IMG/VR virus record: IMGVR_UViG_3300004092_000012
Span: 1-20,391 of that record
Origin: a virus
DNA length: 20,391 nt
Reading direction: 5' to 3' (one strand)
Below, one piece after another: positions 1 through 14,173 of this stretch. Position numbers and translations under genes: made by a program. Under the pieces are notes generated by a model. The model saw only the letters and a program-made list of their open reading frames with translations. It ran no database searches and had not been told where the DNA came from. Every line of letters starts with the position of its first letter. Within the stretch, counting starts at the first letter, position 1.

Positions 1-2172
1 GGCCAGCGGCCCCACCACCAGCACGCCGTCGCGAAAGCAGCGCAGATTCGAGCCGTCCCAATCATAGGACATGGTATGCGTCGCGTTCAGCGTGAAGCCG
101 GTATCCGCCGAGGTCCCGCTCACCAAGCCGTTAGTGGTCGTCACGATTTCGCAGAAGGTCTTGCCGCTGCTGTTGACTGCCATCTGCACTGGCGTGTTGT
201 CCGCGCCGGCGGCGTTGTAGAGGCCGGGATAGGCCGTGAACCATTGGAATAGCTGTCCGGTCGATCCGAGCGAACTGAGATTCACCACCATCTCGACGCC
301 GATCTGAGTATTGCTGTTGAAATTGACCGCCACTGAATTGAGCCAGTCCGACAGCACCAGGTTCGGCGCTCCGCCCGTTGCGGCCATCGAATTGCCGCTG
401 CCCACCAGCGCGCTGGCATAGGTGATATTGTTTGCCGCAGGCGCCTCCGCGACTACCGACGGCCCCGCGAAGTTCGGACATAGCCGCGCATGCGCTCCCC
501 ACGTATTCGCCATCGTGTCACTGCCGAAATCGAGGCCGCCGCAATAGATGCGGATCGGCTGCGTAATCCGATAGCAGCCCGCCGGCCCGGTATAAGGCAG
601 CAGCACCCGCGCGAGCGGCACATGCGCACCCAGCGGCGTTGACCCTGGTGACGTCATTCCGCAAGCTGCCAGGACCGCGTTCTGGATCGCTGCGGTATCG
701 TCGTGATAGCTGTCGCCGGTCGCGCCCATCGCCAGGGTCGTGCCAGCACTCGCGGCGACCCCCGTGAATGGCGCCATTACATTGATCACGCCGTTGAAAC
801 TGCCGCGCAGGTCGTTCACCACCCCGCCGCTCGAACCGTGCAGGATCGGTGCCGACTGAATCGCTGCGGTTGGATAAAACGCCAGCGCAATCGCCGACAG
901 TGCGCCCGCCGCGCTGGTATTAAAGCCGATCGCCGGGGACGCGCCATAGGCATTAGTCAGTCCGGTCACCGCAAAATTATTGCCACTCGGGGCGAATAGT
1001 TGCGTACCGATTTGTGCCGCCAGGTTACCGCCCGACGACGAGGTCGCCGCCGCCACGATAAAATCGTTTTCGTGGGCCAGCGCCGTTGGAAACGCGCCGA
1101 TGCTGATACTCGCGATTGAACCGTTGTTGCCGCCGTTCGATCCGTAAGCCTCCTCGAACTGCGCGCAATTGGTCCCCGCGATATTCAGCAGGATGATGTT
1201 GTAGAATTGGCTGGTGCTCCAGCTCACTGCATAATTGCCCGCTTCGCCCGCCGCTGTTTTGCAGAAGCCCGCGATTATCGATCCAGCCGTATTTGCGTAG
1301 CTGCCGCCAAGCTCGCTGAACCCGCTGGGCGGCGTATAGGTCTCCGACGCCTGCGCATTCGCAACGATCAGCACCAGGGCGTTGCCGTTGCTGATCGAAG
1401 CGGGCGCCGCGATCGTGGCCGAAGTGCCGGGGCCGGCGTCCGCCGTGCTCTGCGAGACGACGTAAACCCCCGGCTGATTATGTTTCAACTGAGCGTTGGC
1501 TTGCGCAAAAGCAATCGCGTCACCGCCGGTTCCCGCCGTCCCCAGGTTCTGCAGCTTCTGCCCATTGACTGAGTACGCACTGGTTAGCGGCGCAAGCGAA
1601 GTCAGGCTGCTTTGCGATCGCGACAAAGCATCGCCGGCAGCTAGGTCCGATGACAAATTCTCTATGCGATGCGACGCGGCGGATACGTCTGAATTCAGCG
1701 GAAACGCGTTGCCCCCGCTGCCTCCGGTCGAGCATGACCACAAACCCAGGGCTCCGATTGCAAGACCGCCATTACCACCGCCCTGGCAAGGCGTCGTCTG
1801 CTCGCAGTCCTTGCACCAGTAAAGCTGGCCGTCCCGCTCGGCAGGCAACTGAGCATAGTTAAGGGCCACCAGCCGGGGAGCCACAGGTGTTATGCCCGAT
1901 AAATGGTTATTCAGATCGTTGCGGAACGCCAGGCCCGCACCAATCCCGGTATAATTCGGTATGGGTACATATTGAGTGTAGCCCCGCCTGCTGCTTATAC
2001 CCAATACGAACACGATCGCGATGGCTATCGCGGCGGCAATTAGCCCAAGCCGCGAACGTGTCCGCGCACTAACTGGGGTGATAGCGGAGTTCAGCATATT
2101 TTGCCTGGGAACTGCCGCCGGTTGCTTGATCGCTTGTCCTTCGGTAAATGCATTCGAACCGTTCATCTCCAT
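1..2172 (-). CDS. Large tail spike protein, C-terminus beyond window; N-terminal hydrophobic helix, pectate-lyase-like and lectin-like segments
   Basis: An open frame of 724 codons runs from ATG at 2172 to base 1 with no stop, so the C-terminus lies outside the window. The start is one base after the stop of the preceding fibre gene, with AGG about 9 nt upstream. Residues about 42-60 form a hydrophobic helix (GLIAAAIAIAIVFVLGIS) flanked by arginines (RTRSR before, RR after). Residues 120-147 hold four cysteines (WCKDC, PC, WSC) in a Gly-rich stretch. Residues about 200-225 (NGQKLQNLG) look like a degenerate fibre-shaft repeat. Residues about 480-550 (GATGDSYHDDTAAIQNAV, then LLPYTGPAGCYRI) match the start of pectate-lyase-superfamily beta-helices common in tail spikes. 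Residues about 625-720 (TMSYDWDGSNLRCFRDG) look like a LamG/concanavalin-type lectin fold. The role is probably host-surface binding or polysaccharide cleavage. A membrane-type helix is unusual in a virion protein. Family assignments are by eye. Confidence 0.82.
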   Translation of the reverse strand, partial: MEMNGSNAFTEGQAIKQPAAVPRQNMLNSAITPVSARTRSRLGLIAAAIAIAIVFVLGISSRRGYTQYVPIPNYTGIGAGLAFRNDLNNHLSGITPVAPRLVALNYAQLPAERDGQLYWCKDCEQTTPCQGGGNGGLAIGALGLWSCSTGGSGGNAFPLNSDVSAASHRIENLSSDLAAGDALSRSQSSLTSLAPLTSAYSVNGQKLQNLGTAGTGGDAIAFAQANAQLKHNQPGVYVVSQSTADAGPGTSATIAAPASISNGNALVLIVANAQASETYTPPSGFSELGGSYANTAGSIIAGFCKTAAGEAGNYAVSWSTSQFYNIILLNIAGTNCAQFEEAYGSNGGNNGSIASISIGAFPTALAHENDFIVAAATSSSGGNLAAQIGTQLFAPSGNNFAVTGLTNAYGASPAIGFNTSAAGALSAIALAFYPTAAIQSAPILHGSSGGVVNDLRGSFNGVINVMAPFTGVAASAGTTLAMGATGDSYHDDTAAIQNAVLAACGMTSPGSTPLGAHVPLARVLLPYTGPAGCYRITQPIRIYCGGLDFGSDTMANTWGAHARLCPNFAGPSVVAEAPAANNITYASALVGSGNSMAATGGAPNLVLSDWLNSVAVNFNSNTQIGVEMVVNLSSLGSTGQLFQWFTAYPGLYNAAGADNTPVQMAVNSSGKTFCEIVTTTNGLVSGTSADTGFTLNATHTMSYDWDGSNLRCFRDGVLVVGPLA

Positions 2173-2173
2173 C

Positions 2174-2749
2174 TCAAAAGCCTATCGCGATCCAGGAGAA
2201 TCCATTGGTAATCTCGGGACTGGCGCCGTTGGAACCCAGCAGCGCTCCTGGAACATCCAGCACAAACGTGCCTCCGGCCGCGTTGTAGGCAACCACTGAT
2301 ACCACCAGGTTCATGCCGCCGGTTTTGTAATAGTAGTTGGTTGCGATCGGTGGAATTAGTATCGCGCTTGGAAATCGCACCGGCCACGTGACACTATACT
2401 GCGCGTCGGCCGCGACCTTGAGTTGCGCGAGTGAGAAATAGCCCCATTGAATTAGCGCGCTCACCTGCCCCCGCTGTATGTCATTGATAGGTATATGCAG
2501 ATACCCGCCGGTCTGGAGTGAGCCGGTAAACCCCGCAGCAAACGCCTGCAGCACGGCAATATTGCCGATATTCGTGTCTTGCCGCTGTTTCAGATACGCC
2601 GTGCGGTTGGCAAGTTGCTGATGCGGCTGATTGCTTATGCCGATCCCGCCGAAGCTTGCATTGAGTGCCGCGCCCTCCACCGGATCGGCCTGCTGAATCT
2701 CGTAGACCTCATTCAGCGTGAATTCAGGATCATCGATTAATGTAGTCAT
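2174..2749 (-). CDS. Tail fibre protein with gp53-like C-terminal domain (191 aa)
   Basis: The N-terminal third (residues 8-60: NEVYEIQQADPVEGA, then LANRTAYLK) has the pattern that opens many Mu/P2-type tail fibre proteins: an aspartate/glutamine-rich stretch followed by an 'L.nRT.yLk' helix. The C-terminal part, from about residue 100 and ending in FSWIAIGF, matches the compact receptor-facing domain at the tip of many short fibres (gp53-like), whose last residues are typically WIAIG plus an aromatic or lysine. The start ATG at 2749 has AGGA 7 nt upstream. The gene lies 63 bp after the previous fibre gene and its stop is one base before the ATG of the large spike, so the two are probably translationally coupled. 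It is short for a full fibre and probably acts as a receptor-binding tip or adaptor. The family call is by eye. Confidence 0.75.
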   Translation of the reverse strand: MTTLIDDPEFTLNEVYEIQQADPVEGAALNASFGGIGISNQPHQQLANRTAYLKQRQDTNIGNIAVLQAFAAGFTGSLQTGGYLHIPINDIQRGQVSALIQWGYFSLAQLKVAADAQYSVTWPVRFPSAILIPPIATNYYYKTGGMNLVVSVVAYNAAGGTFVLDVPGALLGSNGASPEITNGFSWIAIGF

Positions 2750-2812
2750 TATTTATCCTGGCCTGGCGCGGCCGGCGTGGATGGCCTTAGTCCGGCCGGT
2801 TCACCCGCCAGC

Positions 2813-3460
2813 CTAGAAGGTCAGCGTCCACGTTCCGCTGTATTGAGATGCCCCATCGTAGGGAAAAGCTGGCACTGAGACGTGAGCTATCATCGGACCC
2901 GGGGCGGTATGCAGTGCCACCAGCGTCCACACCGCGGTACCGTCGGTGGTAAGCGAACCGGGTGTCGTGGCCCACCCTGGCGTGTTCGCGCCGGTCGTTC
3001 CCGGCGTTCCGCAGCGCTGCAGGTTGCCATTAGCGTCAACTACCAGGCTGCCTGCGGCCTCCGCCGTCACGCTGCTCCAGGATGGATTAGCGCTCCCGCT
3101 GGCGGCCGGGAGAATAACGCCCCCGGCATTAGCGAAAAGGCCCAGTTCCTGAATCGTCATGCCCAGCGCACCGTAGTCAGTGCTTTGCAGGGAATAGTTG
3201 AACTGAACACTTCCAGCGGAAGGAAAGCTGTGCGCCACGATCGTGTTGTAATACGCCGGCGGTGCCGTCAGCGCGGAATCCGCGGTGGCCGGAGCGGCGC
3301 CCCCGGAACCGAAGCCTATCGCCGTTGCATACTGGCCCGCTGTGACCCCCGCAATCAGATTTGCTAGTGCCGGCAGCCCTGCATCGACGAACAAGTTAGG
3401 CTCCTCCCACCAAAGTGTTCCGCCTTGATAAAGCTTGACCAGTCCTCTTGGACGCATCAT
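2813..3460 (-). CDS. Tail fibre-associated protein with inserted TDGTxW module (215 aa)
   Basis: Residues 1-112 and 188-215 together resemble a small phage tail fold: NLFVDAGLPALANLIAG, a glycine-rich IGFGSGG turn, an IQELGLFANAGG motif, and a final beta strand ending GTWTLTF. Between them, roughly residues 118-187, lies an extra module with NGNLQRCGTPGTTG...TDGTAVWTL, a pattern that recurs in tail proteins and is often suggested to bind carbohydrate. Two ATG codons are adjacent (3460 and 3457). GAGGAA immediately upstream is better spaced for 3457, so the true start may be the second. It lies 109 bp downstream of the I gene, where Mu and P2 carry their fibre genes. No enzymatic motif is visible. 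The product is probably a virion fibre or adaptor component; the exact role is unknown. Confidence 0.7.
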   Translation of the reverse strand: MMRPRGLVKLYQGGTLWWEEPNLFVDAGLPALANLIAGVTAGQYATAIGFGSGGAAPATADSALTAPPAYYNTIVAHSFPSAGSVQFNYSLQSTDYGALGMTIQELGLFANAGGVILPAASGSANPSWSSVTAEAAGSLVVDANGNLQRCGTPGTTGANTPGWATTPGSLTTDGTAVWTLVALHTAPGPMIAHVSVPAFPYDGASQYSGTWTLTF

Positions 3461-6253: not shown

Positions 6254-7174
6254 TCACTGGATAGTGTTGCAGTCTTCGTTGCGTTGCCGGAAGTAAACAT
6301 CCAGATCGTGCCGCAGGCGCGGCTTGTTGCCCGTCAATTCGAACACACCCCATACGTTCCGCTTCAGATCGGTATCCGGGTCGAACTGGTGCTTGGTGAT
6401 TATGTCCCAGCGCTGCACATATCTGCGATCATTTTTTCGGCCATGCCACGAGTGCTCAATCGTGGAGCCTTCGAGAAACCCGATATTCTGGTTCAGATGG
6501 CGCAGCGCACGGCGCTGCCACTGCATCAGCGGCCGCATATAGCCTGGCGCTACCCCCTTAGGCACGCTCAATTTGACCTTGCCGATCAGAGCGAGCGCCA
6601 TGTGGTGATCACCCGCTCCCACCGCCGCCGTGTCCATCAACCCGCCGAGTGCGCCGACTGCGCTGCGCGCCGCCGCCCAAGCATAACCCGGATGAGCGAA
6701 ACCATAGTAATGGCCTTGCCCAACCTGTACCCCTTTCCACCACTGGCGGCAAAACGACCGATGATGTTCCACATGCTCGCCCTTGGGCCCCAGGTCGTAA
6801 CAATCCGACCAAGGCTGCAAAACATCATATTGTTGTAAAAGGTCTACCGTATCGGCCGCCCAGTGTTCATTCCGAAACTTTATATCCGCATCGATCCAGG
6901 CCACGTATTGCCAGTTCTCCGGCAAGCGCGATATGCCTAGGTTGATCAGGTTTTCTTTGTTCCATAAAAGTGTACTCGCCCGAACCCCAACGTGATTAAC
7001 CCGCGCTTCGCCCCCTAGCAGGTGAGGCCGGCTGCCCAGTGCGCACTCGACCGTGGTAAGGCATACCCCGCTGGCCAGCATATGCGCTTCGAATTCGCGG
7101 TAAAGCCGCAGCCGGCTTTCCCAATCAATCGGATTGTAGACAACGGTGACGACATGGAGCAGGTTCGCTTTCAT
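6254..7174 (-). CDS. GT-A-like glycosyltransferase in the baseplate cluster (306 aa)
   Basis: The N-terminus (NLLHVVTVVYNPIDWESR) is a beta strand-loop typical of nucleotide-sugar binding in GT-A glycosyltransferases. YVAWIDADIKF at residues 90-100 contains the DxD metal-binding motif (D95-A-D97). GAGDHHMALALIG at about residue 187 sits where GT-A enzymes carry an acidic acceptor/base motif. Length is normal for a single-domain cytoplasmic enzyme, with no signal peptide or membrane helix. The gene is 10 nt after V and on the same strand, so it is cotranscribed with the baseplate genes. The substrate cannot be read from the sequence: virion protein, host surface glycan and modified DNA base are all possible. 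The start ATG at 7174 has a weak CGGA upstream. The fold call is good; the activity is inference. Confidence 0.78.
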   Translation of the reverse strand: MKANLLHVVTVVYNPIDWESRLRLYREFEAHMLASGVCLTTVECALGSRPHLLGGEARVNHVGVRASTLLWNKENLINLGISRLPENWQYVAWIDADIKFRNEHWAADTVDLLQQYDVLQPWSDCYDLGPKGEHVEHHRSFCRQWWKGVQVGQGHYYGFAHPGYAWAAARSAVGALGGLMDTAAVGAGDHHMALALIGKVKLSVPKGVAPGYMRPLMQWQRRALRHLNQNIGFLEGSTIEHSWHGRKNDRRYVQRWDIITKHQFDPDTDLKRNVWGVFELTGNKPRLRHDLDVYFRQRNEDCNTIQ

Positions 7175-9294: not shown

Positions 9295-9717
9295 CTATAG
9301 GTGCGAATGCGGCTGCGCCGGCGCTGAGGCATCAACTTCCGCGTCCAGAGCCCACTCCTTCAGTTCCACCATTACCGTCATAGCAAACATGTCGCCTTCA
9401 GCACTCATTTGCGTCGATGTCACCCGGAGCGCAACCATCACAAAGTACCCTTCATGATCCCCGTTGCCGAACACCAGCGGCCGCGCGCTATGGTCGCGGC
9501 CCGCAGCCAGTAACTGGGCAAGCTGCCCGGCCGGGTTTGTGAATGACGCGTGGAACCTCAGCTCAAGCTCGATCGTTCGCAGATTCTCCGATAGCCATTG
9601 TAGTCGCGGGCGCGCCTCGGCCACTTCTTGCTCTGCATAAGTCCAGCGGTAGACTGATTCGTATGACAGGGGCGAACTCAGTAATTCGAACGTGATCTCG
9701 CCTAAGGTTCCGAACAT
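9295..9717 (-). CDS. U: Tail protein U (P2 gpU-like), 140 aa
   Basis: This is the P2 U family of small tail completion/assembly proteins. Conserved features: the N-terminal FGTLGEITFELLSSP, the YRWTYAEQEV segment, GQLAQLLAAG at about residues 63-72, the FGNGDHEGYFVM motif at about residues 82-93, and the closing MTVMVELKEWA. The last 14 residues are a short Ala/Ser/Pro/His tail. The start ATG at 9717 has AGGA 8 nt upstream. It follows the tape-measure-position gene, as U does in P2 relatives. Confidence 0.92.
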   Translation of the reverse strand: MFGTLGEITFELLSSPLSYESVYRWTYAEQEVAEARPRLQWLSENLRTIELELRFHASFTNPAGQLAQLLAAGRDHSARPLVFGNGDHEGYFVMVALRVTSTQMSAEGDMFAMTVMVELKEWALDAEVDASAPAQPHSHL

Positions 9718-9770: not shown

Positions 9771-10904
9771 TCAGAATTCGATGCGCCGTTGTTTTGCGGC
9801 TTCCTGATCAATCACGCGCATTAAGTCATAGCTGTGCCGCCTGAGAGCCTCGATAATATTGACTTTGTCCTGCTGATCGAGGATCAGGCTGCCGCCTTTT
9901 AGTACGACAGTGGGGCTGAACTGTATGACAACTGGCCGAGCCATCTTCCGTTCACGGCGTGTGGAATCGTGAACGGCTCGCCGCGCGAAGGATGCCGGCC
10001 GCTCGCCGCTATCGGCGTAATCGCTCTTTCCACTAAGCCCCAGCTTTGCCGGCCCCGCAAAGGAACCGATCTCCTCCTTGGCTCCGTTCCCTGGTGAGCT
10101 ATGATAGTTCCGCGCCCTGACGGCAGTTCCGCCGCGCTGGTGCAGCCGCGGCGAAGAGCCGATCCCCTCGGCGTCCATCCCTCTGCGGACAACGTCGAAA
10201 ACGATTGCTTTGCCCAACAGGCCGCGTCCGGCCGTCAAAACTCGAACTAAGCGGCCCCTGCCCTGCCGGCCAGCTAATGCCGCTGCCGCATTTACATCCG
10301 GTAACATTCTACTTCCTAGTCGAACACTTCGCCGGCCGTACGCCGCCGCCGTGGAATGTCTCCTGTTCTCGCTCAGTTTACCGGCCTGCCGATTCGCAGT
10401 TCCCATCAAAGCCTTGGACATCCGCTGGCGCGGCCAGCGCCGGGCGGCCTCTGAAGGGTCTTTTCGCGAACGGACACCTGGAACGGCTTTGCTGCTGCTT
10501 ATTGGACTGCCGTCAGCAATTGGATGAGTCCCATGTGAATCCCGCCTCCGTATCGCTTCCGCCTCTCGGCTGGCTCTCTGCTTAATTGCCTGCAGCCACC
10601 CCGCCGAGGTCGTCCGGAACGCTTCCCCATCCGCCTTTCCATGCGGGCCGGCACTTTCAGCCAGGAGCTTCGGCCAACTCACAGGCTTCGCCGGCCCCTT
10701 AACTGGCCATCTTGCCCGGGCCGCCCCGATACTATGTCGAAATGAACTTTCAGGCTTGGTGGCTCGAAGAACCATCGCGAAATGCGCAAGGCTCGCTTTC
10801 ATGGGCGGATTCATTCGTGAAAGTGATCGCGGCACTAGCGGCTTTAACCGCTGGGAATATCTCCTGCCTAGAGTCACGGCGCGGCGGAAATTACCACTCA
10901 ACAT
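9771..10904 (-). CDS. Short, arginine-rich protein in the tape-measure position (377 aa)
   Basis: The gene lies where the tape measure belongs, between the chaperone/RRM genes and U. The last 57 residues (RPVVIQFSPTVVLKGG, then VNIIEALRRHSYDLMRVIDQ, ending AAKQRRIEF) match the usual C-terminus of Mu/P2-type tape measures: a beta strand with NPT- or SPT-like residues, a helix and a basic end. Residues about 204-245 (AAAALAGRQGRGRLVRVLTA, LLGKAIVFDVVRR) recall the membrane/hub-proximal region. Residues 1-200 are very basic, proline-containing and not coiled-coil-like, which is odd for a tape measure. Tape measures commonly exceed 600 residues, so this is much reduced or partly degenerate. The start ATG at 10904 is 22 nt after the RRM stop with GGGGAG about 12 nt upstream. 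Confidence 0.62.
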   Translation of the reverse strand: MLSGNFRRAVTLGRRYSQRLKPLVPRSLSRMNPPMKASLAHFAMVLRATKPESSFRHSIGAARARWPVKGPAKPVSWPKLLAESAGPHGKADGEAFRTTSAGWLQAIKQRASREAEAIRRRDSHGTHPIADGSPISSSKAVPGVRSRKDPSEAARRWPRQRMSKALMGTANRQAGKLSENRRHSTAAAYGRRSVRLGSRMLPDVNAAAALAGRQGRGRLVRVLTAGRGLLGKAIVFDVVRRGMDAEGIGSSPRLHQRGGTAVRARNYHSSPGNGAKEEIGSFAGPAKLGLSGKSDYADSGERPASFARRAVHDSTRRERKMARPVVIQFSPTVVLKGGSLILDQQDKVNIIEALRRHSYDLMRVIDQEAAKQRRIEF

Positions 10905-10926: not shown

Positions 10927-11199
10927 TTAACGAACCGGGCGTTCTAGTTCGCGAGGCTTGGCCAGCGCTACCCTCAAGACACGCCCCATCACTTCGGCCC
11001 CGTCCAATTCTCCGATCGCGATCTCCGCGTCCTCTGCCGTCATCATGTCCACGAACGCAAAGCCGCGCGATAGCCCTGTCCAGCGGTCCTTCATGAGTTC
11101 AACCCCTTCGACCCCGGCGACTCGTGCGAACACCTCTCGCAGCGATTCATCGTTTAGCTCGAAGTTCAGGTTGCCTGCGTACAATCGCCTGTTACTCAT
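10927..11199 (-). CDS. RRM-domain RNA-binding protein (90 aa)
   Basis: This is a single RNA-recognition motif. RNP2 is RLYAGNLNF (residues 4-13 of this start), with the aromatic Y and GNL retained. RNP1 is RGFAFVDM (about residues 45-52), with both aromatic RNA-stacking positions (F-A-F) intact. The beta-alpha-beta-beta-alpha-beta order is visible: SLREVFARVAG helix 1, EDAEIAIGELDG helix 2, VMGRVLRVALAK strand 4. A short basic tail follows (RELERPVR). Such one-domain RRM proteins occur in bacteria as RNA-binding or cold-responsive factors; I know of no usual place for one in a phage tail operon. I chose ATG 11199 (MSNRRLY); a TTG at 11208 is an in-frame alternative. AAGG lies just upstream of the ATG. 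The gene is about 45 nt downstream of the frameshift-encoded chaperone and 22 nt upstream of the tape-measure-position gene. Confidence 0.88.
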   Translation of the reverse strand: MSNRRLYAGNLNFELNDESLREVFARVAGVEGVELMKDRWTGLSRGFAFVDMMTAEDAEIAIGELDGAEVMGRVLRVALAKPRELERPVR

Positions 11200-11244
11200 T
11201 ACCTTCAACTTTCCCTTGGACGATCCGTAAGTCCGCGTCTATGG

Positions 11245-11678
11245 CTATTCCCCGCTATCGCTGAAGTAGGCGTTCACCTCATTCAGCCAGAATCTCACTT
11301 CGCCGATTTCCATGGCCGCGATTTCCGCGTAGGCGAATCCGGTCTGGATCAGGGCCAGGAAATTAGTCCCCGGGGCAGCCGCGCCCGCCGCGCGCCCAGC
11401 TTCCCGGCCACCTAAAAATTTGCGCTGTCGTCTACCCCTCCGGCGACCTCCGCCTCCAGGCAAAGAACGTCTGCCAGATCCATAGCCAGTACGTCCTCAT
11501 ATACGATTGCTTTGCCATCGACTTCCGCCAATTCGGCTATCAGCGCAAACGTGATCGCCGTCGGCTCGGGATTGTGGCCGGCCACCCGATGCGCACGCAT
11601 CAGGTCGCGTCCGAAACCTTTTCGCACTACTGCCGGCCGGCCGGAAGGGAGCCTGATTTCCCGCGATGAATCGTCCAC
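11245..11678 (-). CDS. Tail assembly chaperone, -1 frameshift fusion product (about 144 aa)
   Basis: A -1 slip at the heptamer A AAT TTT (11421-11415) joins the first chaperone frame (88 codons from 11678) to a second frame reading LGGREAGR and ending at 11245, giving 88 + 56 residues. The second part has the P2 E'-like signature GFAYAEIAAMEIGEVRFWLN: an aromatic, A.(I/L)AAM, then a Trp-containing helix. Long and short chaperone products in a fixed ratio are typical of tailed phages (lambda G/GT, P2 E/E+E'), where they chaperone the tape measure during tube assembly. The downstream frame has no credible independent start with a ribosome binding site, which supports the fusion. The frame offset, heptamer position and residue count were checked by hand. 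Confidence 0.85.
11412..11678 (-). CDS. Tail assembly chaperone, short unshifted product (88 aa)
   Basis: GTG start at 11678 with GGAG about 10 nt upstream. The product begins with a beta strand and basic stretch (REIRLPSGRPAVVRKGFGRD), has AHRVAGHNPEPTAITFALIA at about residues 29-48, and ends ...DDSANF with TAG. Content and position downstream of the tube protein fit the P2 gpE / Mu gp41-type chaperone. The DLADVLCLEAEV segment matches the 'd..ll...' helix of such proteins. It is the normal termination product of the frameshift gene. Confidence 0.85.
   Translation of the reverse strand: MDDSSREIRLPSGRPAVVRKGFGRDLMRAHRVAGHNPEPTAITFALIAELAEVDGKAIVYEDVLAMDLADVLCLEAEVAGGVDDSANF
11415..11421 (-). 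promoter_or_regulatory. -1 programmed frameshift slippery heptamer A AAT TTT
   Basis: On the minus strand the 0-frame reads GCA AAT TTT TAG. The heptamer AAATTTT fits X XXY YYZ, so both P- and A-site tRNAs can re-pair one base back (AAT to AAA, TTT to TTT), and the 0-frame stop follows immediately. The GC-rich downstream sequence contains CCGGG and, further on, CCCCGG, which could pair as a stimulatory stem. Confidence 0.82.
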
Positions 11679-11732: not shown

Positions 11733-12251
11733 TCAGCCGCCCAGGTTTGATCGCAGGATCGCGAGCTGATCGGTTCCATTCACGACATAGATGTTCGCGA
11801 TAACATCATAGAGATGTATCTGCGCGCCGGCCACGTATAGTTCGGAATGATAAACGGTGATAATCGACGTGCTGTCGGCGTTTTCGTGCTGGCGAAACGT
11901 AAAATTCCCCGCTTCCTTGAAAACGCCGGTCATTAGATACACTAGGGGCAGTTCCGCAATTCGGCCTTGGCTAGTGTACTGCTCGATGCTCCCGCGCACT
12001 TGAAATGAATGAGACACGAACGGATTAGCGGCTGCCGCAAGCGCCTCCGGATAAAGTGACGCCCACTTGATTTTCGCTTCCAGTTTGTCGACCCCGGCCC
12101 AGAACTCAGCGGTGCCCGCCATGCCAAGCGCTTTGTGATCGGCCATCTTTTGCTTCGGTTGAGCGACTTCGATCTCCTCAGCGCGGCCGAGCAATCCGAC
12201 TCCGTCCATGTAGATATTCGCGTTGGTAATTCGGTTAATTGAAATATTCAT
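11733..12251 (-). CDS. Tail tube protein, P2 FII-like (172 aa)
   Basis: This is the major tail tube protein family (P2 FII, Mu M). Visible: the N-terminal ITNANIYMDGVGLLGRAEEI (compare the 'N.F.DG....G..eei' of FII), LEAKIKWASLYPE at about residues 57-69, the SHSFQVRGSIEQY strand, and LPLVYLMTGVFKEAGNFTFR. The C-terminal part (LYVAGAQIHLYDVIANIYVV) ends with IL, as in family members. Length is normal. The start ATG at 12251 has GGGAGG about 13 nt upstream, unusually far. It is separated from the sheath stop by 66 nt; the order sheath, tube, chaperone, tape measure is the usual one. Confidence 0.92.
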   Translation of the reverse strand: MNISINRITNANIYMDGVGLLGRAEEIEVAQPKQKMADHKALGMAGTAEFWAGVDKLEAKIKWASLYPEALAAAANPFVSHSFQVRGSIEQYTSQGRIAELPLVYLMTGVFKEAGNFTFRQHENADSTSIITVYHSELYVAGAQIHLYDVIANIYVVNGTDQLAILRSNLGG

Positions 12252-12317: not shown

Positions 12318-14072
12318 TCACGCGTTGGCCGGCGTTCCGGTTAGCGCACTGGTATTGCCCGGCTGGCTCAAAAGCGTCGAGTCGATATAGACGTTGAATG
12401 TAAGTCGTTCGGCCGGCGGTGGCGGCATAACGTCAATGTCAAACACTAGTTGGCCGGCCGCGATCTGATTTGTCGGATTCTCCGCCGGATTGAATGACGC
12501 CGAGCCCGCCACCAATGCTCCCCGCTGAATTAGGCTGCGGATGAAAGCATTGACGCTCGCCAAAATAGCGGTGATAAGGGCATTGCTTATCGGCTGATCC
12601 ATGAACTGGAGCATCGAAAGTTCTACCGATTCTTCGATTACATCCATCGTTCGCCTGATATTAATAAAATTGTCCGGCGTCGTAATTGTGGGATAGCCAG
12701 CCGTGCGATTACCCCACACTCGAAGCCCGGTCCCAAAGGCGTTGAAGACCGTCACGATCCCGCTGGAATTAAGATTATTCACGTCAGAGGCCGCGTCGAG
12801 GAGCGACGCATACAGGGTGACATCGGGCCCAAGGATTCCGGTGACACTGGTGTTCGAGGGCGACCACCAATAGCCATTTCGCAGATCCTGATAAGCCATC
12901 GCGCCTGCGACCCATTGGGAGTACGGGCCGACCGCGGTCTGGTTGGCCGCGAGGGTTATCGGAACGGTACCATTTAAGGTTACCCCGGTTGGCACGAGCC
13001 CGGTGTCATAGAAGGATTCCTGTGGATAGCATAAGATCGCGCGCGTGGAGCTTGTGTCGAAAGCATTACCGGCCGCGCCGCGATTCGCGATTGCCGTTGC
13101 GGGAGGGGTGCTGGGCGGCGAATCAATCAGTGCCATCGCCCTTATCTTGATCGCAAGCGCCAACATCGCGCTAGCAACACCGCTATCTTGCGAATAGCCT
13201 GGGGCTATCAGCAGCTTGGGAAAAAAGCCCATCGTCCCGAACGTCGTTGTCAGTGCCTGCAGGCCCGAATAATTGGCGTTCGTAACAGCTCCAATTATGT
13301 CGCTGTCCTGGACTTTGCTGGGATCCGCGTAACTGAATGAGGCGGCCACGGTCGCGCCGGCGGCGATCGCGCTTCCCGTTCGCAATGCGATCACGCCGTT
13401 GATAAGGTCGGCGTTATAGTCCTGCCCGCTGATATAGGGCGATCCGGAATAGTAACTATAGCTCACCAGTACTTCTTGCGTCGTCCCGATAGCGCCCGTC
13501 CCCAGCCGGCTAATCAGGCCCGAACGCGCGTCAACCGCATAGTCAGTGCCCTGCACAAACGTCGTCCCGGCCGGATCGCTCGTCACCACTAGTGTCGGCG
13601 CCTCCGCGTTACCGTGGTTGAGCTGTACCGTTGCCGGACTGCCCCCAAACGTATGAACTTCCCCGCTCACGGCCGTTGTTACGGGCGGCATGATGGACAG
13701 GCCGGCTATTCCCATGTGGCCCAGATTGATTGCGCCAGCCGGACTGAACGTTCCCGTCAATACCAGGTCTGTGATGTGCCTTGCCGGATCGAAGACGTTG
13801 ACGACAATGACCTGTCCCGCTCCTTGTTGCAGAATCGCGTTCAGCGCGTAGGGAATCGTGTAACCCTGGACCATACCGCCGAAATTGGCGGCATCTAGTA
13901 TCGAATTGACTAGCGTCGGAGCGTTTACGCCGGGAGCCGCCGCTGGTGCCTGGACATTCCACACCGGCGCGGTGCCCACCAGGCCAATCACGGAAGACTT
14001 GACCACTGAGATTGGAGCGGGACCGGTGGTCGTTTCGATTACTTCGACGCCGTGTAGAAATGACGCGGGCAT
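12318..14072 (-). CDS. Tail sheath protein, Mu L-like, with inserted beta modules (584 aa)
   Basis: The contractile tail sheath. The N-terminus (SFLHGVEVIETTTGPAPISV) is the usual 'GV...E...G..pi..v..s.vg.vGtap' pattern. Residues 269-330 (SGLQALTTTFGTMGFFPKLL, then AIKIRAMALIDSPP) and 410-440 (QWVAGAMAY near WWSPSN) are sheath core motifs. The C-terminal region has NFINIRRTMDVIEESVELSM and ends with a strand (ERLTFNVYIDSTLL). Residues about 110-250 are extra and include two copies of a beta module with VQGTDYAVDARSGLISR and ISGQDYNADLINGVIAL cores. I use ATG 14072, with GAGG 8 nt upstream; it shares its A with the stop of the microORF before it (TAATG). A TTG at 14108 is a poorer in-frame alternative lying inside the hairpin. 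Confidence 0.92.
   Translation of the reverse strand: MPASFLHGVEVIETTTGPAPISVVKSSVIGLVGTAPVWNVQAPAAAPGVNAPTLVNSILDAANFGGMVQGYTIPYALNAILQQGAGQVIVVNVFDPARHITDLVLTGTFSPAGAINLGHMGIAGLSIMPPVTTAVSGEVHTFGGSPATVQLNHGNAEAPTLVVTSDPAGTTFVQGTDYAVDARSGLISRLGTGAIGTTQEVLVSYSYYSGSPYISGQDYNADLINGVIALRTGSAIAAGATVAASFSYADPSKVQDSDIIGAVTNANYSGLQALTTTFGTMGFFPKLLIAPGYSQDSGVASAMLALAIKIRAMALIDSPPSTPPATAIANRGAAGNAFDTSSTRAILCYPQESFYDTGLVPTGVTLNGTVPITLAANQTAVGPYSQWVAGAMAYQDLRNGYWWSPSNTSVTGILGPDVTLYASLLDAASDVNNLNSSGIVTVFNAFGTGLRVWGNRTAGYPTITTPDNFINIRRTMDVIEESVELSMLQFMDQPISNALITAILASVNAFIRSLIQRGALVAGSASFNPAENPTNQIAAGQLVFDIDVMPPPPAERLTFNVYIDSTLLSQPGNTSALTGTPANA
13326..13634 (-). repeat. Shared beta module in tail sheath (one full and one partial copy, in tandem)
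   Basis: Residues about 147-249 of the sheath contain a full copy (ATVQLNHGNAEAP..., TTFVQGTDYAVDARSGLISR, GAIGTTQEVLVSYSY) followed by a partial copy (SPYISGQDYNADLINGVIAL, SAIAAGATVAASFSY). The shared pattern is 'f..G.DY..D...G.i......I.....v...ysy'. The same pattern recurs in the gp37-like and decoration-like proteins. Confidence 0.75.
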
Positions 14073-14173
14073 TAAGTTGTCCTCTGTCGGATCAATGCGC
14101 CGGGCCAAATTGGCCCGGCGCCTGGCCCTTCTATGCGTTGAGGTTGGCGGGAACCATAAAGCGCTCTCATCAT
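14072..14173 (-). CDS. MicroORF between gp37-like gene and sheath (33 aa)
   Basis: ATG at 14173 overlaps the stop of the gp37-like gene (TGATG), and the frame ends in TAA sharing its last A with the ATG of the sheath (TAATG). GGAAG lies just upstream at a plausible spacing for the second ATG (14170). The peptide is basic (begins MMRALYGSRQPQRIEGPG, ends ALIRQRTT). Mu-like phages often have a small gene (gp38 type) here, but I see no sequence similarity to it. The frame contains a strong hairpin and the ribosome binding site of the sheath. It may be a real small protein or a coupling leader. Confidence 0.42.
   Translation of the reverse strand: MMRALYGSRQPQRIEGPGAGPIWPGALIRQRTT
14097..14121 (-). 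other. Strong GC-rich hairpin ahead of the sheath ribosome binding site
   Basis: A 10-bp perfect stem GCGCCGGGCC / GGCCCGGCGC with a 5-nt A/T loop (AAATT on the plus strand). No T-run follows on the minus strand, so it is not a classical intrinsic terminator. Its base is about 12 nt upstream of the GAGG of the sheath gene, so it could act as an RNA stability or processing element or as a translational control element. Confidence 0.7.

Follow-up and report, generated by a model that had tools for sequence, protein, structure and literature searches.

We found that a 20,391-nt stretch of viral DNA (IMG/VR record IMGVR_UViG_3300004092_000012, positions 1 to 20,391; referred to below as the window) encodes, within a phage tail operon, a small protein predicted to be a complete canonical RRM with an intact RNA-contact surface, and that a single lineage of Mu-like phages carries the gene in at least 72 IMG/VR records. 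As far as the literature and databases show, a conserved RRM gene in a phage tail operon is unreported. RRM-type proteins are chiefly familiar from the cells of humans and plants, and canonical single-RRM proteins are poorly understood in bacteria. Our preferred reading, held with moderate confidence, is that the gene encodes a late-expressed single-RRM RNA-binding protein, akin to the RbpB/Rbp class, which is vertically inherited in the Mu-like late tail operon, is accessory, and probably stands outside the frameshift mechanism of its neighbor. That many uncultured phages conserve an RRM among their late structural genes points to unexplored post-transcriptional control late in infection or, alternatively, to an RNA-binding protein connected with assembly of the tail.

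The RRM gene and its predicted fold

The gene for the 90-residue RRM protein was assigned to 10927 to 11199 (minus strand), from an ATG at 11199, on the basis of homologue starts, Pfam RRM_1, and an AlphaFold2 model. The listed open reading frame (10927 to 11208, minus strand) includes an alternative start, an in-frame TTG at 11208; the ATG is favored because homologues mostly begin MS(x)R(L/V)(Y/F). Pfam RRM_1 (PF00076) matched the product from end to end (profile positions 1 to 70 of 70; 60.9 bits; E 1.1e-16; cut-off, 20.7), bearing out the preliminary description of the DNA, which had read a single complete RRM from the sequence. The family profile scored this frame at 141 bits and the best other frame in the window at 5.8 bits, which excludes a chance origin.

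AlphaFold2 modeling with 23 aligned relatives gave a beta-alpha-beta-beta-alpha-beta fold with a pLDDT of 90.3. VIA alignment superimposed the model on RNA-bound RRMs of HuR and Sxl (Z of about 16; rmsd of about 1 Å), and the match to 3hi9 reached a Z of 16.4 and an rmsd of 1.0 Å over 79 residues. The best matches of the model by Foldseek and VIA were RRMs, and RRM proteins were among the matches listed in a PDB sequence search. Structure prediction and family search, both proposed in the preliminary description, therefore agree on an RRM.

The RNP2 motif LYAGNL (11167 to 11184, minus strand) contains the aromatic residue Y7, a position occupied by Y or F in all 56 distinct tail-slot RRMs. RNP1, RGFAFVDM (11044 to 11067, minus strand), contains F47 and F49; among the 55 distinct tail-slot RRMs covering the site, both positions are always aromatic (F in 54 and Y in 1 at the first position, F in 55 at the second). 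The RNA-stacking aromatics noticed earlier in the window are thus also kept in the homologues, in every distinct sequence with the site. Proteins and single-stranded DNA are also possible ligands of RRM folds.

The tail operon and its phage lineage

The RRM gene is embedded in a run of tail genes comprising a tail sheath gene (12318 to 14108, minus strand; Pfam PF04984/PF17482), a tail tube protein FII gene (11733 to 12251, minus strand; Pfam PF04985, 136.7 bits), a tail assembly chaperone gene, and, beyond the RRM, a tape-measure-slot open reading frame and a gpU-like gene (9295 to 9717, minus strand; phrog_788/76, with GpU found in Pfam for the L091 homologue). The zero-frame chaperone product (11412 to 11678, minus strand; phrog_21320) carries the slippery heptamer A AAT TTT (11415 to 11421, minus strand) directly 5' of its TAG stop, and the -1 frame extension (11245 to 11463, minus strand) ends 45 nt before the RRM ATG. 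The heptamer lies where the two frames overlap and is conserved in relatives, as is characteristic of a -1 frameshift chaperone. The tape-measure-slot product (9771 to 10904, minus strand; 377 residues) is Arg/Ser-rich, has no hydrophobic segment, and has no PHROG or Pfam match of its own. Its last 60 or so residues are conserved and form a segment common to relatives (C-terminal profile), which also gave a weak match (E 1.7e-8) to the annotated tape measure of Pseudomonas phage Bise. The window open reading frames and slippery site confirm the earlier placement of the RRM on the tail strand between the -1 frameshift chaperone and the tape-measure-position gene.

A search of the coding strand between 9000 and 12600 revealed no sigma-70-type promoter-like site, and the GC and GC3 of the RRM gene are like those of its neighbors; we infer from this that the gene is a member of the tail operon. 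In most relatives it is preceded by its own ribosome-binding-site-like leader. An Rfam search of the window returned no RNA element. In clade B the leader is 60 to 70 nt long and conserved within the clade (e.g., L136, 4928 to 4992); it contains a Shine-Dalgarno sequence and a (G/C)TGACTA-like word that occurs twice. No consensus fold was supported for this leader, which is absent from the other clades.

Two other features of the window were noted. A 306-residue open reading frame (6254 to 7174, minus strand) lies between the spike and gpW genes, has no Pfam or PHROG match, and has a homologue only in L118 to L120 among the RRM-scan loci compared. Positions 1 to 2181 (minus strand) belong to a family of long downstream open reading frames shared with L095, L096, L098, L100, and L109, which are 874 to 911 residues where complete or nearly so and have a signal-peptide-like hydrophobic start, odd for a tail fiber or spike.

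The window record itself is fragmentary; it includes Mu-like_Pro and a homologue of the portal. The lineage can be called Mu-like because one 43.9-kb relative, G057, combines a MuA-type transposase (rve plus Mu-transpos_C), a TniB-like ATPase in the MuB position, a terminase, and a Mu portal (Portal_Mu) with an RRM in the slot; together with the protease and tail module, these are the hallmarks of a Mu-like transposable phage. A domesticated, DNA-less particle was suggested by clade B and C records without a Mu portal, some of them with genes of host type immediately upstream of the protease. This reading was dropped because G050, of the same clade, has a terminase and portal upstream, beyond a block of about 8 kb with the same host-like genes. 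The missing portals probably reflect contig ends or provirus trimming.

Several records begin exactly at the protease, probably through provirus trimming. Host-like cargo lies between portal and protease in G050 (L188 and L189), G001 (L091 and L092), L095, L104, and L101. An SBBP/DUF7948/HYDIN protein and an ABC ATPase are common to several of these records, an Mrr nuclease is found in G050, and an FHA-CAP protein is found in L101. Judging by the type of cargo carried, we guess that the host phylum is Acidobacteriota.

Descent of the gene and its place beside frameshift site and tail

In order to survey the slot, IMG/VR was searched with the tail tube; 80 loci were fetched, and removal of duplicates left 69 records showing the slot. 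The RRM was present, and placed after the chaperone, in 46 of the 69 and absent from 23. A second search with the RRM alignment as the query gave 140 matches, of which 80 loci were kept; the same tail genes flank the RRM in 68 of these, adding 26 new records. The gene always lies on the tail strand, directly after the chaperone in all records but one (G059), and its 3' neighbor is the tape-measure gene or, where this is missing, gpU (G059 again excepted). The neighborhood search proposed in the preliminary description has thus recovered many Mu-like phages with an RRM beside the chaperone. Several relatives lack the gene, including some with otherwise similar tail operons (L024, L030 to L032, L072 to L075, and L081), and it is thus a conserved accessory gene. 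Apparent single-frame joining of chaperone and RRM in L133 and an N-terminal extension in L151 both look like incidental open frames.

Pairwise dN/dS values for the RRM were 0.03 to 0.15, compared with 0.07 to 0.33 for the chaperone, 0.02 to 0.50 for gpU, and 0.37 to 0.58 for the tape-measure slot. The RRM is therefore constrained similarly to or more tightly than the chaperone and gpU, and far more tightly than the tape-measure-slot protein; conservation of the frame, on which the preliminary description had made its reading depend, was borne out. The RRM tree recovered the main backbone clades, at the limited resolution that some 80 columns allow. A single clade of tail RRMs was not rejected (p-AU, 0.31), and the RRMs of L071 and L150 may be separate from the rest. 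Parsimony on the backbone tree required five presence/absence changes, and L024, which branches within a group of carriers, has probably lost the gene. Judged from these comparisons, the gene appears to be old in the lineage, inherited with the phage backbone, and under strong purifying selection.

These data bear on the view that the gene is a moron-type bacterial cargo whose action is confined to host RNA or stress and which happens to occupy a tolerated gap of the tail operon, an account that we consider unlikely. The closest cellular matches found are indeed bacterial RRMs (52% identity in Dolichospermum; 39 to 40% over about 80 residues in Porphyromonas gingivalis PG1, PDB 7jly), a third of the slot-showing relatives do without the gene, and the slot seems to take other small open reading frames in some records (L151). 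However, the fixed slot and orientation, a gene tree in broad agreement with the backbone, dN/dS as low as that of core tail genes, and GC matching the neighbors indicate that the RRM is not a recent or casual passenger. The preliminary suggestion that acquired cargo is the simpler explanation is weakened by the same observations; what stands of it is that the original source may have been a bacterial RRM gene.

The preliminary description also proposed that the protein might tune frameshifting. A protein that specifically tuned the -1 frameshift of the chaperone, or translation of the tape measure, would fit the position of the RRM as the next gene after the frameshift extension, 12 to 70 nt away in most records, but we regard such a role as very improbable. 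The heptamer AAATTT(T/C) is conserved in nearly all relatives in which the site is covered, with and without the RRM alike, and about 20 RRM-less relatives keep AAATTTT. In G059 (L192) the RRM was left between tube and gpU (6792 to 7091), and the chaperone and tape-measure genes have been relocated to a site some 3.5 kb or more upstream of it (1032 to 3362), between the capsid and DUF1320-position genes; the chaperone homologue there is a weak Phage_TAC_7 match under the Pfam cut-off. Furthermore, seven clade C records (L058, L060, L061, L063, L066, L068, and L069) keep chaperone and RRM with no tape-measure open reading frame in the slot, gpU following 33 to 74 nt after the RRM, and the chapB-RRM junction showed no conserved RNA structure. 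A frameshift cofactor was rejected as a likely role, since the slippery site persists without the RRM and the RRM does not move with the chaperone. The G059 and clade C rearrangements uncouple the RRM from the frameshift gene and thus argue against a frameshift role; a broader effect on late mRNA is possible. Frameshifting in the neighboring chaperone gene probably does not depend on the RRM.

Placement in the tail operon is equally compatible with a protein associated with the particle. Such a protein would be incorporated in the tail or virion or travel with it, perhaps together with bound nucleic acid, and may enter the next host and act early on its RNA. A role of this kind is possible because the RRM is tied to the tube-gpU neighborhood: it stays there in G059, although chaperone and tape measure have moved, and it persists in the seven clade C records. 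Nevertheless, its loss from relatives with otherwise similar tail operons indicates that it is not an essential structural part, and its RNA-contact face is kept as in free RNA binders; on these grounds we judge a particle role improbable. We give almost no credence to the further idea that the RRM works in particle or tail assembly by bringing or organizing RNA in the assembling tail, in place of a tape measure that is shrinking and, in one clade, wholly absent from the slot. In the tape-measure-less records searched, no other location yielded the C-terminal tape-measure signature.

The tape-measure-slot open reading frames of RRM-bearing records are short and Arg/Ser-rich. They lacked a hydrophobic segment in all 29 RRM-bearing records tested, and the segment was present in 11 of 17 RRM-less relatives. 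A tie between RRM presence and tape-measure type was rejected, since only four independent pairs differ, the association is not significant after phylogeny, and the RRM-bearing L150 (G057) has a hydrophobic segment.

We return to the preferred reading of a late-expressed RNA-binding protein. Binding of single-stranded RNA late in infection is the likeliest activity because of the kinship with bacterial RRM-1 proteins and the kept RNA-contact surface. The protein would be translated late, together with the tail genes, and its beta-sheet would bind single-stranded RNA; the ligands would most likely be mRNAs or small RNAs of the phage or host, and binding may adjust their translation or stability late in infection.

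Comparison with known RNA-binding proteins and phages

Database searches place the protein apart from annotated phage families. No PHROG gave a match to any of 23 members of the RRM family, and a set of 50,697 phage records yielded only one weak RRM match, in a Microcystis phage, and none in the tail-operon setting. A defense gene was considered and rejected, as the RRM matched no PADLOC model at an E of 0.1.

The organization of the tail operon is that of BcepMu/Mu-like phages. The isolated phages Escherichia phage PhiKM and Pseudomonas phage Bise share the order of sheath, tube, chaperone, tape measure, gpU, gpX, and hub, with tail tubes 42 to 49% identical. In PhiKM and Bise, however, the tape measure directly follows the chaperone and no RRM is annotated, in keeping with the earlier statement that no standard RRM gene is known between the two. 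The tape measure of Bise has 1,119 residues, compared with 257 to 475 in most of the RRM lineage.

Among phage proteins, the VIPR RAMP proteins are also built on an RRM core and combine it with a RAMP G-loop and thumb and with guide-RNA arrays (PMC13142463). The protein described here is unlikely to be one of them, since it is a lone canonical RRM_1 and is set apart by the architecture described there. T4 RegA is a phage translational repressor with an RRM-like fold (PMC7824862). The RRM protein resembles it in being small, phage encoded, and of the same broad fold class, and differs in its canonical RNP motifs and tail-operon location.

The closest parallel is with the free-standing bacterial single RRMs of some 80 to 100 residues with canonical RNP1 and RNP2, namely RbpB of Bacteroides thetaiotaomicron, cyanobacterial Rbp1-3, NF058537, and P. 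gingivalis PG1. RbpB has an RRM-1 domain, and CLIP has proved that it binds RNA globally (PMC11697453). The best NCBIfam match was NF058537, "RNA-binding regulator," at 80 bits for the window protein and 90.5 and 90.7 bits for its homologues in L060 and L045; these scores fall short of the equivalog cut-off of 100 bits, so that by this rule the phage RRM is a relative rather than a member. Unlike the bacterial RRM-1 proteins, it has no glycine-rich region, has a short C-terminal tail, and is encoded within a tail operon.
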